Positions 1 to 6,055 of a stretch of 39,527 bases of DNA are shown one piece after another. Position 1 is the first letter of the stretch. The number at the start of each line of letters is the position of its first letter. This DNA is from Bacilli bacterium (lineage in GTDB: Bacteria > Bacillota_I > Bacilli_A > RFN20 > CAG-826): positions 1 to 39,527 of the forward strand of contig JAGBLE010000019.1 in NCBI GenBank assembly GCA_017635565.1, given 5' to 3'. Made by a program: the position numbers and the translations under genes. The notes below the pieces were generated by a model. The model worked only from the letters and a program-made list of their open reading frames with translations, was not told the origin of the DNA and searched no databases.

Positions 1-34
1 ATCCCCAATCCCCAATCCCAATCCCCAATCCCCA
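1..34. repeat. Telomere-like CCCCAAT repeat
   Basis: Five C-rich units follow one another: four read CCCC and one reads CCC, separated by AAT. The C-rich strand runs 5' to 3' inward from the extreme left end of the window, as expected for a eukaryotic, and in particular ciliate, chromosome end. Ciliate telomeres are C4A2 or C4A4 types, and this is a C4A2T variant. Nothing bacterial explains it. The array is short, so chance or a low-complexity artefact cannot be fully excluded, but the adjacent DNA supports the telomere reading. Confidence 0.72.
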
Positions 35-335
35 TTTAACTAAATATAAAAAATATATATTAAAATTATTTTTTTATTCATTAAAAAATTTAATTAAAAA
101 TAATAATTTAAATATTTATTTTGAATTAAATATAATATAATAATAATTTGAAAAATAATTTAAAAAATTATTTTTAACAGTTTTTTTGATTTTGATTTTT
201 CTTAATGTTATAATAAATAAAATTAAAAATATATGTAATGTTTAATAATAATCAGTATTATTAAATAAGAACGTTTGCTTAAAAAATGATTAAAATTATA
301 TGGGATTTATCTTTTAAGAAATAATAATAATTATT
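35..335. other. Extremely AT-rich non-coding flank
   Basis: About 300 bases are almost pure A and T, with long T and A runs and no credible reading frame on either strand. This lies between the telomere-like repeat and the 3' end of the minus-strand gene. It fits the short subtelomeric and 3' untranslated DNA of ciliate macronuclear chromosomes. It is clearly more AT-rich than the bacterial intergenic DNA elsewhere in the window. No promoter or RNA gene is visible. Confidence 0.6.
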
Positions 336-812
336 TTAGAAAAATAATGCAATTAATAATATAGAGGCAATAGATAAACTTTTAAGATTAGAAGAATAAC
401 AATCAAGTTGATAAATCTTAGTATTAGCTCCAGCTCTTGTCCATATTGCTCTATCACCTTTTTCCATTCTTTGCATAGTTACTGTAGTATCAAGATAATT
501 TTCTTCACTTAAGCCAATACAACCAGCATGCATTCTTCCGTCTTGTTGGAATCTTATATAACAACAATGATCATAATAAAATTTTTTATCAGGATCCCAT
601 AATTGGAGATCGACACAATCGGAAACGCCAGATGGAACAAATGTTGCACCAGAATTATCATCAAGCCACTCAGTTCCATTTACAATATATCTATCCATAC
701 ATGAAACATAACCACCATTTTTTGCATTATATGCCGGACCTTGCTTTTGTTCGAGTAAAGTGTCAATTGATGCACCTAAGTATATAAGAGTTAATAATAA
801 GAATTTCTTCAT
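336..812 (-). CDS. Cys-rich secreted, GPI-anchor-like protein (probably ciliate)
   Basis: This 158-residue protein has an N-terminal signal peptide (MKKFLLLTLIYLGAS) and a C-terminal hydrophobic stretch ending in SIASILLIALFF with no basic residues after it. That tail resembles a eukaryotic GPI-attachment signal rather than a bacterial membrane anchor. The middle carries six cysteines, including a CC pair in YDHCCYIRFQ and a following AGCIGL, a pattern I associate with ciliate and other protist surface proteins. No bacterial ribosome-binding site precedes the ATG, and the flanks are extremely AT-rich. It stops at TAA and shows no intron. I cannot name the family, and its function is unknown. 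I infer that it belongs to a protist chromosome and not to the bacterium in the rest of the window. Confidence 0.62.
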   Translation of the reverse strand: MKKFLLLTLIYLGASIDTLLEQKQGPAYNAKNGGYVSCMDRYIVNGTEWLDDNSGATFVPSGVSDCVDLQLWDPDKKFYYDHCCYIRFQQDGRMHAGCIGLSEENYLDTTVTMQRMEKGDRAIWTRAGANTKIYQLDCYSSNLKSLSIASILLIALFF

Positions 813-903
813 TTTTTATATGAAATTAATTAAATATTAATATCTAATGATATTTTTTCTATTAAAAATTTATTTTTTAAATAAATAATTTTTTTTAATT
901 TAG
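813..903. other. Junction between eukaryote-like and bacterial DNA
   Basis: This AT-rich stretch would be the 5' flank of the minus-strand gene. It runs straight into the body of bacterial rplJ at about 901-905 without a promoter, leader, ribosome-binding site or start codon for L10. A TAG lies in the L10 frame at 901-903, immediately before the first L10-like codons, so the breakpoint is at or just before 904. Bacterial L11, L1 and the usual L10 leader RNA are absent. Confidence 0.7.
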
Positions 904-1383
904 GATGTCTTAAGCGCAAAACAAGAGACAGTAAGAGAAATCGTTAGTAAAGCTCAAGCAAGTTCTGGAATTATCGTTGCAGAATATCGTGGCTTAACTG
1001 TTGCTCAAATCCAAGAATTAAGACGTGCATTAGCAGCTGAAAAATCTACTATGAACGTTTACAAGAATTCTTTAGTTGAAAGAGCAAGTGATGAACTCGG
1101 TTACTCTGATCTCAAACAAGTTCTTGAAGGACCAAACGCCATCTTCTTCTCTGAAGACGTTAGCGGAGGTGCTAAAGTTCTCGCCAAATATGCGAAAAGA
1201 TATGGTGACTCTTTGAAAATTAAGGGTGGTATCTTCGAAGGCAAATACGCTGACAAAGCTCAAGTCTTAGAAGTTGCAAAACTCCCAAACAAAGAGGGCA
1301 TGCTTGCCATGTTATTATCGTGCTTACAAGCACCAGTCCGTCAATTTGCCTGTACAGTTAAGGCTGTTGCGGATGCAAAATAA
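904..1383 (+). CDS. rplJ: 50S ribosomal protein L10, 5' end missing
   Basis: L10 forms the base of the ribosomal stalk and binds L7/L12 dimers and 23S rRNA. The reading frame from 904 gives DVLSAKQETVREIV, then IIVAEYRGLTVAQIQELRRAL and the C-terminal LLSCLQAPVRQFACTVKA, a full-length L10 match apart from a few N-terminal residues. No in-frame start exists upstream: TAG sits at 901-903, and the ATG at 905 is out of frame. The in-frame ATG at 1051 would delete about 50 conserved residues and is not the real start. The gene is therefore cut by the junction to foreign DNA. The next gene is rplL, 24 bases downstream, the normal order. Confidence 0.9.
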   Translation, partial: DVLSAKQETVREIVSKAQASSGIIVAEYRGLTVAQIQELRRALAAEKSTMNVYKNSLVERASDELGYSDLKQVLEGPNAIFFSEDVSGGAKVLAKYAKRYGDSLKIKGGIFEGKYADKAQVLEVAKLPNKEGMLAMLLSCLQAPVRQFACTVKAVADAK

Positions 1384-1407: not shown

Positions 1408-1785
1408 ATGGCTAAATTAACAAAAGAAGAAATTATTGCTAGTTTAAAAGAAATGACAGTTCTCGAATTAAACGAACTTGTCAAAGCAATTGAAGAAGAA
1501 TTCGGTGTCACAGCCGCTGCCCCAGTTGCAGTCGCTGCTGCTGCCCCTGCTGAAGAAGAAGAAAACAAAGGACCAACAGAAGTCAGCTTATTCATCAAAT
1601 CAGTTGGTGCTTCAAAAGTCCAAGTTATCAAAGCTGTCCAAGCAATTACCGGTTTAGGCTTAATGGATGCAAAGAAATTAGTCGATGCCGCTCCAGTTGC
1701 TGTTAAAGAACACATCACACCTGTCGAAGCTGAAGAACACAAGAAAGCTCTTGAAGCCGCTGGTGCTGAAGTCGAAGTTAAATAA
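1408..1785 (+). CDS. rplL: 50S ribosomal protein L7/L12
   Basis: L7/L12 is the mobile stalk protein that recruits and stimulates the translational GTPases, including EF-G and EF-Tu encoded further along this window. The 125-residue product has the N-terminal dimerization helices ([13 protein letters not shown]), an Ala/Glu-rich hinge at about residues 34-52 ([19 protein letters not shown]) and the C-terminal factor-binding domain with [15 protein letters not shown]. Length and layout are normal. A strong AGGAGGA ribosome-binding site lies at about 1395-1400. It is co-transcribed with rplJ, and a methyltransferase gene follows, as in Bacillus. Confidence 0.97.
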
Positions 1786-1815
1786 TTTCGCTTCTATCTT
1801 AACTCTGAGGTGATA

Positions 1816-2412
1816 ATGGGCCATTATTTTGACGAAAACCCAGAAACTATTTCAAATATTCGCGAAATTAGTTTTACGCTTTTTGATAAAACATATACTT
1901 ATTACACCGATAACGGAGTATTTTCTAAATCTCGGATTGATGAGGGGTCTTATATCTTTCTTAAGGTATTATTACCCCTCTGCTTAACCGGGAGAATATT
2001 GGATTTAGGCTGTGGATATGGGCCAATAGGACTCACCATCGCCTTAAATTCAAAAGAGGCAAGAGTTGATCTTGCCGATATTAATTCGCGCGCACTCGCT
2101 CTAGCGTCAAAGAGCGGTGAACGGCTGAATTTAAATTCACGAGTCACCTTCCTTCATAGTGACATCTTCGAAAAGATTGAAGGACCATATGATTCAATTG
2201 TTGTAAATCCCCCAATACGTGCTGGTAAAATCGTTACCTACTCAATGTATGAGGGAAGCAAACAACACTTAGTTGATGGCGGTTCGCTTTACATTGTTAT
2301 CCGAAAAAAGCAAGGAGCAGAGAGCGCTTTCAAATATCTCGAAACAGTATTTGAAAACGTTTCCGTGCTTCATAAAGAAAAAGGCTATTGGATAATCAAA
2401 GCCACAAAGTGA
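1816..2412 (+). CDS. RsmC/YbxB-like class I methyltransferase
   Basis: This is a SAM-dependent methyltransferase of the RsmC (16S rRNA guanine-N2) family. It has the SAM-binding motif [13 protein letters not shown] and the catalytic NPPIRAGK, with NPPI being the hallmark for methylation of exocyclic base amines. The position between rplL and rpoB matches B. subtilis ybxB, supporting orthology. Single-domain YbxB proteins are about 200 residues, as here, whereas E. coli RsmC has an extra N-terminal domain. I start at ATG 1816 behind GAGGTG at 1807-1812; a GTG at 1810 lies inside that ribosome-binding site. The gene ends in TGA, which with TGG-coded Trp throughout argues for the standard code. 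The rRNA target site is inferred from the family. Confidence 0.9.
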
Positions 2413-2449: not shown

Positions 2450-5400
2450 ATGTCCAGAAATATTACTGAACTTAGACAAATTAACAACAATCGTTATGAT
2501 TACTCAAAAATCTCTGGCGACCTTCCTCTTCCAAATTTAGTGGAAATTCAAACAAAGAGTTACGCTGAATTCTTAGAAAAAGGTTTAGATGAAGTATTTA
2601 GAGAATCATTTCCAATTGAGAACTATATCGGTACATTAACTATCGAATACTTATCAATTAGATTAGGCGAACCAAAACATTCTTACTTAGAATGCAAAGA
2701 AAAAGATCTCACATATAACGTACCAATGTATATCACTGTGCGTTTAATTCATAAAGAAACAGGAGAAATCCAAGAGAGTGAAGTCTTTATGGGTGATCTC
2801 CCACTTATGACCAATAGTGGAACATTCATTGTCAATGGTGCAGAAAGAGTTATTGTTAGCCAACTCGTCAGATCTCCAGGAGCCTACTTATCCAAAGAAT
2901 TTAAAGCTGGTAAATACTTATATGAAGCAGATTTAATTCCAGGAAGAGGAACTTGGTTACAATTTGAAAGTGATGCGAAAGATTTACTCTCTGTTCGTAT
3001 TGATCGTCAAAGAAAGATTCACGCTACAACACTTTTAAGAGCGTTAGGTCTTGAAACAAGTGAAGACATTGAAAAATTCTTTGGTGATTCATTCGCTTTA
3101 AAGAACACATTAGACAAAGAAGAAAGCAAGATTAAATCAAGCAAAGCTGCTCTTTATGATATCTTCAGAAAAATGAAACCAGGTGAACCAGTTACTGAAG
3201 AAGGAACTGCTAACTTCTTAATTCAAAGATTCTTTGATGAGAAGAGATATGACCTCGGTCGTGCTGGTAGATATAAATTCATCAAGAAACTTGGTATTTA
3301 TAATCGTTTACCAGGCAGAATCCTCGCTGAAAACTTAGTCACCAACGATGGTGAAATTAGATTCAAAAAAGGATATCAATTGACTGTTGAAGACGTTGAA
3401 GCTTTAAGAGATGAAGAATTCTTCGAAACAAGTTCACGTCACACCAAAAAAGCCAAAATCAATGAACGTTTAAATGATAACGGTAATGTCAATGTTCTCA
3501 AAGTTTATAACAATGACAAGAAAGAAAAAGTTTCCGTTATTATTGGAACTGATTTAAGAAATCAATCAACATACGTGAATATTTGTGATATTTACGCAGT
3601 ATTTTCATATTTCTTAAATGTCATGGATGGATTTGGTGACACTGATGATATCGATCACTTAGGTAATAGAAGAGTTAGATGTGTTGGTGAACTCATTCAA
3701 AATCAATTCCGTGTCGGTTTAGCCAAGATGCTTAAAACCGTTCAACAAAAGATGTCAATTTCTGATTTAGGCAATGTCAAACCAAAAGCCTTAATCAATC
3801 CACGTCCATTAGTTGCTTCAATTAGAGAATTCTTCGCAAGTTCTCAATTATCTCAATTCATGGATCAAACTAACCCATTAGCAGAACTTACCAATAAGAG
3901 AAGATTATCTGCTTTAGGTCCTGGTGGATTAACAAGAGATCGCGCTAGTACTGAAGTTCGTGACGTTCACGTTTCTCACTATGGACGTATTTGTCCAATT
4001 GAAACCCCTGAAGGTCAAAACATTGGTCTTATCAATAACTTAGCCTCATACGCGAAAGTAAATAAATATGGATTTATAGAAACTCCATATCGTCCAGTTG
4101 ATAAAAAGACTAACTGCGTCTTATCAAAAGCCGAAGATAGTGTTTATTTAACTGCAGACGAAGAATGGGATTATGTCATCGCTGAAGCAAACATCAATCT
4201 TGGTAAAAACGGAGAAATTCTCGATGAAGTCGTTGTCGCTAGACACCGTGGAGAAAATATTCTCGCCAAGAAAGAAGATGTCGACTTTGTCGATGTCAGC
4301 CCAAAACAAGTTGTTTCGATTGCTGCTGGTAGTATTCCATTCCTTGAGAATGATGATACTATGCGTGCTCTTATGGGTTCCAACATGCAACGTCAAGCTT
4401 TACCACTTTTAAAGCCACACGCTCCATTTGTTGGAACAGGACTTGAACACCAAGTCGCTCGTGACTCTGGACTTGCAGTTGTTGCTAATTCTGATGGTGT
4501 TGTCACTTACACCGATAGTAGAACAATTGAAGTGCTTGAAAAAGGTAAGAGTGAACCTGTCACATATCACTTACAAAAATTTGAAAGAAGTAATAACGGT
4601 ACTTGTATTAACCAAAATAGCATCGTCAAAGTTGGTGATAAAGTCAAAAAAGGACAAATTATCGCTGATGGACCTGCTATGGAAAATGGTGATCTCGCTT
4701 TAGGTCAAAACGTAACCATCGCCTTCATGACATGGAATGGATATAACTACGAAGACGCGGTCATCATGAGTGAAAGACTCGTTAAAGATGATGTTTATAC
4801 TTCTATTCATATTGAAAAATATGATTGTGAATGCCGTAGCATTCCAAAATTAGGGGACGAAGAAATTACCGCTGATGTACCAAACGTTTCCACAGAATCT
4901 AAGGCTCACTTAGACAGCCGTGGTATTGTCGTTGTTGGTACTGAAGTTATAGAAGGCGATATCTTAGTCGGTAAAGTTACTCCAAGAGGACAAACTGAAC
5001 CAACTCCAGAAGAAAAACTCTTAATGGCCATCTTCGGAGAAAAGACTAATGAAGGTAAAGATGCTTCTTTACGTGTTCCACATGGTGGAGCTGGTATCGT
5101 TCTCGATGTCAAAATTCGTAAAAGAGAAGAAAAAGCCAAAGACAACATTCTCCCTCCAGGAGTTAATGAAATCGTCACTGTCTATATCGTTCAAAAGAGA
5201 AAGATTAGTGAAGGTGACAAGATGTCTGGACGTCACGGTAACAAAGGTGTTATTTCTCGTATCTTACCTGAAAATGATATGCCATTCTTACCTGATGGAA
5301 CTCCAGTTGACATCATGCTCAACCCTCTTGGCGTTCCTTCCCGTATGAATATCGGTCAAATTCTTGAAGTCCATTTAGGTATGGCTCTTAAGAAACTTGG

Positions 5401-6055
5401 CTATAAGATTGCAACTCCAGTCTTTGATGGAATCACAAACGAAGAAATCTTCGAAATGATGGACAAAGCTGGAATGGCAAAAGATGGTAAAACCGTCTTA
5501 TATGATGGCCGAACTGGTGAACCTTTCGATGAAAGAATTACAGTCGGTGTCATGTATATGATTAAACTCGTCCACATGGTCGATGATAAGTTACACGCTC
5601 GTGCAACTGGTCCATATTCATTAGTGACTCAACAACCTCTTGGTGGTAAAGCACAAAATGGTGGACAAAGATTTGGTGAAATGGAAGTTTGGGCTCTTGA
5701 AGCTTATGGCGCAGCCCATATCTTACAAGAAATCATTACAGTTAAATCTGATGACCGTGTTGGTAGAAGAAAGACTTATGAAGCAATTATTAAGGATCAA
5801 CCACTTCCAAAAGCGGGTATCCCAGAAGCCTTCAAGGTCTTAGTAAAAGAATTACAATCCTTATCAATGGATGTTCAACTCCTTGATAATGAAGGTAATA
5901 ATATCGATATGGACGCTCTCGCTAAAGAAGCTGACAAAGAAGAAAGAAAGATTAATACTGCTCTCCGTAATCTTGTCGGTGATGAAAGTGGAACAGTTCA
6001 TAACGAAGTTGATGAAGATGTCTCGATGACAACATTCATCAACGGTGGTGAATAA
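2450..6055 (+). CDS. rpoB: RNA polymerase beta subunit
   Basis: The 1201-residue beta subunit of RNA polymerase spans from the N-terminal lobes to the C-terminal region that meets beta'. Diagnostic stretches include the rifampicin region [16 protein letters not shown] followed by [16 protein letters not shown], the [17 protein letters not shown] motif and [11 protein letters not shown]. At the position equal to E. coli His526 this protein has Asn (residue 482, codon 3893-3895), the substitution linked to natural rifampicin insensitivity in Mollicutes. The start at ATG 2450 follows AAAAGGAG at about 2435-2442. rpoC follows after 18 bases, forming the usual rpoBC operon. Confidence 0.98.

Follow-up and report, generated by a model that had tools for sequence, protein, structure and literature searches.

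Telomeres built of CCCCAAT repeats have been described in Entodinium caudatum (PMC6211341), Muniziella cunhai (PMC11316547) and Balantidium ctenopharyngodoni (PMC10978948), all three genera being trichostome litostomes from animal guts (PMC6211341, PMC11316547, PMC10978948). In Muniziella the genetic code is the standard one and most stop codons are TAA (PMC11316547). A 15-bp AT periodicity has been reported within approximately 100 bp of subtelomere in E. caudatum. In Balantidium, telomeres embedded within longer sequences were encountered in approximately 3% of contigs and in approximately 48% of corrected Nanopore reads, and derived from chimeras or artefacts (PMC10978948). Here we report a contig of a bacterial MAG that begins with a telomere of this type and continues as a bacterial ribosomal protein operon. 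We conclude, with a probability of approximately 0.96, that the contig is a chimera in which the end of a trichostome ciliate chromosome was misjoined to the rplJ operon of a rumen member of the Bacilli, the true flank of which lies on a second contig (C2) of the same assembly.

The sequence analysed, referred to throughout as the window, comprises all 39,527 bp of contig C9, from a 31-contig, 1.07-Mb assembly that is 73% complete; the features at its left end are listed in Table 1. Rightward of position 904, ORF translations and Pfam searches gave the bacterial gene order rplJ (from codon 4 onward), rplL, a methyltransferase of the MTS type and rpoB. The closest named relatives are MAGs assigned to Bacilli or 'Erysipelotrichaceae' that were mostly recovered from rumen, reticulum, omasum and the faeces of reindeer and horse. 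Positions 902 to 39527 are genuine rumen Bacilli DNA that begins inside rplJ. These sources bear out the gut or rumen origin proposed in an earlier note on this DNA, which had named rumen material or single-cell amplification as possible sources, but nothing requires amplification. At the right end of the contig (39497–39527) the sequence breaks in the start of an apparent tRNA gene, which is an ordinary repeat-type assembly break.

Table 1. Coordinates of features at the left end of the window, with strand and basis of assignment.
Position	Strand	Feature	Basis
3–34	.	Ciliate telomere, approximately 4.5 CCCCAAT units; C-rich strand 5′, i.e. a left chromosome end	Sequence, Markov null, published repeat
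35–335	.	AT-rich subtelomeric flank; GC 8.3% over 36–335	Composition
336–812	-	Putative ciliate ORF (158 aa) for a secreted- or surface-type protein; ends with TAA on the telomere-facing side; GC 32%	Translation
813–901	.	5′ flank of the 158-aa ORF, up to the misjoin; GC 4.5%	Composition
902–979	+	78 bases identical to the C2 terminus; sequences diverge left of 902 (chimeric junction)	C2 alignment
904–1383	+	rplJ (ribosomal protein L10), beginning at codon 4; C2 carries its L10 leader, RBS and start codon instead	Pfam, C2 comparison
1408–1785	+	rplL, ordinary bacterial neighbour	Translation and operon order
1810–2412	+	Small bacterial methyltransferase (MTS domain) in the position between rplL and rpoB	Translation, Pfam
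2450–6055	+	rpoB, bacterial	Translation

The telomeric array comprises units at 3–9, 10–16, 17–22 (CCCAAT, with one C missing), 23–29 and 30–34 (CCCCA, followed by TTTAAC). Despite the missing base, 27 of the first 34 bases agree with a perfect CCCCAAT period, compared with a best score of 21/34 over approximately 400,000 positions of a 2-Mb dinucleotide-Markov sequence built from the window. Two consecutive CCCCAAT units (CCCCAATCCCCAAT) were found nowhere else in the whole 1.07-Mb assembly. The presence of CCCCAAT units at the left tip in chromosome-end orientation, as first noticed, was therefore confirmed by comparison with the null. The attribution of the repeat to a ciliate was likewise correct, but the published trichostome telomeres identify it as C4A2T, the litostome repeat, and not as the C4A2 of Tetrahymena.

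The sequence between the array and rplJ differs sharply in composition from the remainder of the contig. After position 902 the GC content is 35.4% and reaches a minimum of 22% in any 300-bp window, compared with 8.3% in the subtelomeric flank, in agreement with the extreme AT-richness previously remarked for this region. Of the genome's 62 contig ends, excluding the two of C23 (2,517 bp, with N for 500 bases at its start and 508 at its end), the left end of the window was an outlier with 18% GC over its terminal 500 bases, the next lowest contig end having 24%. Flanks comparable to 35–335 are present in two ciliate nanochromosomes, L134 and L015, which are described below. Positions 36–335 gave no peak above the null at a lag of 15, although the measure published for E. 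caudatum may average many chromosome ends.

The product of the 158-aa ORF has a signal-peptide-like hydrophobic N-terminus, a Cys-rich middle and a hydrophobic C-terminal tail, and the ORF fits the genetic code and stop preference of Muniziella in having a TAA stop and no in-frame stops. We found no Shine-Dalgarno-like stretch ahead of its ATG, consistent with the earlier observation that it lacks a bacterial ribosome-binding site. The ORF had no Pfam match, no significant sequence match in the PDB and no relative in either genome_contigs or viral_contigs, and its single-sequence structure prediction (mean pLDDT 44.9) was too poor for use. A bacterial homologue of this protein, which the earlier note had regarded as one observation that would speak against a chimera, was sought across 18 congeneric genomes and none was found.

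It is exceedingly improbable that the CCCCAAT array arose by chance or is a repeat of bacterial origin, next to an AT-rich flank that is itself bacterial. GC-rich viral or phage contigs do contain runs of three tandem CCCCAAT units, but the array in the window lies at the outermost end of the contig, is oriented as a telomere and is unique in its assembly, the GC content of the flank is far beyond the range of the genome, the adjoining ORF is without a homologue in the genus, and the same repeat also caps clear eukaryotic chromosomes (L134 and L015). The ciliate origin of the left piece is argued from its telomere, from its base composition and from these undoubted ciliate chromosomes, which terminate in the same way, and as judged from its sequence we interpret window 1–901 as the macronuclear chromosome end of a trichostome gut ciliate, entodiniomorph-like in character.

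The change from ciliate sequence to rplJ occurs at 902/903, where GAT (codon 4 of rplJ) is preceded in frame by TAG. An abrupt switch into rplJ had previously been placed at 904; the switch itself is real, but lies two or three bases earlier. In C2 and in the relatives, ATG-AAT-AAG or a close variant is found where the window has the TAG-ending sequence ahead of GAT. The rplJ gene of the window has no start codon, no ribosome-binding site and none of its first three codons, and no L10 leader was found in the window. A search of the assembly with this truncated gene returned the end of C2 as a second match, with the first 25 codons identical. Read outward, C2 carries rplK, rplA, an L10 leader (Rfam RF00557; 45.9 bits against a gathering threshold of 44), AAGGAGG and then ATG-AAT-AAG-GAT, and its last 78 bases correspond to window 902–979. 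The sequence that truly precedes base 902 is the end of C2. The rplK-rplA pair lies immediately upstream of rplJ in all 23 of 23 relatives, and the ciliate-rplJ junction was absent from every relative examined. Since one assembly offers two left flanks for a single stretch, only one of which makes biological sense, the join is false. The original proposal of a chimeric contig formed from ciliate and bacterial DNA is thus supported both by the trichostome telomere and by the real flank of rplJ on C2.

We also considered a true insertion or lateral transfer beside rplJ, involving either a piece of ciliate chromosome in the bacterium or a telomere-capped bacterial piece in a macronucleus. The join contains no gap and the sequence is clean in both parts, and gut ciliates are known to take up bacterial genes, as described under HGT for Balantidium (PMC10978948). 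We nevertheless regard transfer as very unlikely, because the start, ribosome-binding site and leader of rplJ that are lost in the window are intact on C2 beyond an exact 78-base overlap, because the insertion has no counterpart in any congener (both the junction and the ORF being absent from relatives), and because a telomere at the tip would need a linear bacterial chromosome ending there. No mobile element was seen between the telomere and rplJ in ORF translations or Pfam searches.

The misjoin was probably made in vitro or in silico. It could have arisen as a chimeric library molecule, or alternatively in a low-k step or branch, or a local extension, of a MEGAHIT-type multi-k de Bruijn assembler. 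Exact shared ends among the contigs of this MAG measured 141, 141, 140, 78, 74 and 29 bases; these, together with a contig of a related rumen MAG that is named k141_..., suggest a multi-k de Bruijn assembler with a final k of 141. The 78-base overlap between the window and C2 is one below a standard MEGAHIT k (79), and to name the precise assembly step behind the join on this basis is a guess. A k=77 SPAdes signature was also considered for the 78-base overlap, and was dropped because other contigs of this MAG have ends that agree exactly over 141 bases. A rare real molecule bearing the ciliate-rplJ join is formally possible. The junction most probably exists in no cell, and there is consequently no function of it to explain.

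Ciliate DNA was not confined to the window. A search for (CCCCAAT)3 among 279 genomes of the order recovered only two genomes, both from the genus of the window; with the window's own genome, which has a 14-base version, the repeat is present in 3 of the 19 genomes of the genus and in none of the other 260 in the order. It was also absent from 392 genomes drawn from the phylum, a sample that overlaps the 279-genome set and is skewed toward the same class and toward complete genomes. In one of the two congeners, contig G015:C41 (L135, 1–10673; RUG14619, a name assigned from matching rplJ coordinates) starts with a CCCCAAT telomere followed by approximately 560 AT-rich bases with the end of an ORF, and then by prs, which is cut after approximately 140 codons where the congener G002 has a 301-aa frame. 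The ciliate-side ORF (L135, 1–560) had no Pfam match and no significant PDB match. This contig is a second, independent chimera of telomere, ciliate and bacterium, with the same build as the window and from another species. In the other congener, contig G005:C10 (L134, 1–3649; RUG042, named on the same basis) is 3,649 bp in length, has telomeres at both ends and encodes a 1,080-aa Ca2+-ATPase of the plasma-membrane type (PMCA-type); it is a complete ciliate nanochromosome that was binned into a bacterial species-representative MAG.

Similar sequences were observed in viral collections. L015 (1–3253; IMGVR_UViG_3300010998_001116), which is telomeric at both ends and encodes a 928-aa SNF2-type helicase, is a complete ciliate nanochromosome filed in IMG/VR as a viral contig. 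L012 (1–2299; IMGVR_UViG_3300028833_000049) is AT-rich and carries two head-to-head CCCCAAT telomeres (GGGATTGGG/CCCAATCCC) as well as an apparent terminal repeat, and is probably a ciliate chromosome mistaken for a circular virus. The large AT-rich 'viral' contig L019 (IMGVR_UViG_3300021400_000885, 103,909 bp) opens at 1–120 with a TG-rich tract and CCCCAAT repeats and continues as coding-like sequence, a telomere-like end that could belong to either a protist or a large virus.

The recurrence of ciliate DNA within one genus might indicate that these bacteria live on or in rumen ciliates, in which case the ciliate DNA in their MAGs would have been co-purified and would co-vary with theirs, and the join would still be an artefact, as a by-product of the partnership. 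The distribution given above for the order and the phylum draw favours such an association (2/18 with the window's own genome left out versus 0/260; p approximately 0.004, by hand arithmetic). However, the comparison is confounded by habitat, in that nearly all of the named relatives are rumen or herbivore-gut MAGs, from settings rich in trichostome ciliates; similar AT-richness favours co-binning; and neither Bacilli nor Erysipelotrichaceae is mentioned in a survey of protozoa-associated rumen bacteria (PMC11222294). We consider this explanation unlikely, and regard the recurrence as a weak, habitat-confounded lead to the physical association that the earlier note had raised as a possibility.

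Irrespective of its cause, the misjoin is of practical consequence as a quality flag, as at least three species-representative MAGs of a rumen genus carry ciliate DNA. This DNA was missed by standard bacterial completeness and contamination scores, the MAG of the window being listed at 1.3% contamination. A check for terminal (CCCCAAT)n would flag such contigs in MAG sets from herbivore guts and avert false claims of gene transfer, and the clustering of ciliate telomeres at genus level points to an inexpensive way of testing for bacteria associated with ciliates.

Compared with the macronuclear chromosome ends of E. caudatum, B. ctenopharyngodoni and M. cunhai, the left end of the window is alike in its (CCCCAAT)n array, AT-rich subtelomere and compact gene with standard code and TAA stop, but differs in being fused to bacterial DNA; a signal of the 15-bp AT periodicity of E. 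caudatum was not seen in it. The gene order of the bacterial rplKAJL-rpoBC operon with its L10 leader (RF00557) is found in two parts, the window matching it to the right beginning with rplJ and C2 matching it to the left of the rplJ start; the difference is that the misjoin splits the operon over two contigs. The window also resembles the chimeric or contaminated contigs of MAGs and ciliate assemblies, in that a gene is cut at the join, the true flank of this gene is found on a different contig and a congener provides a further, independent example, and it shows no difference of substance from them.
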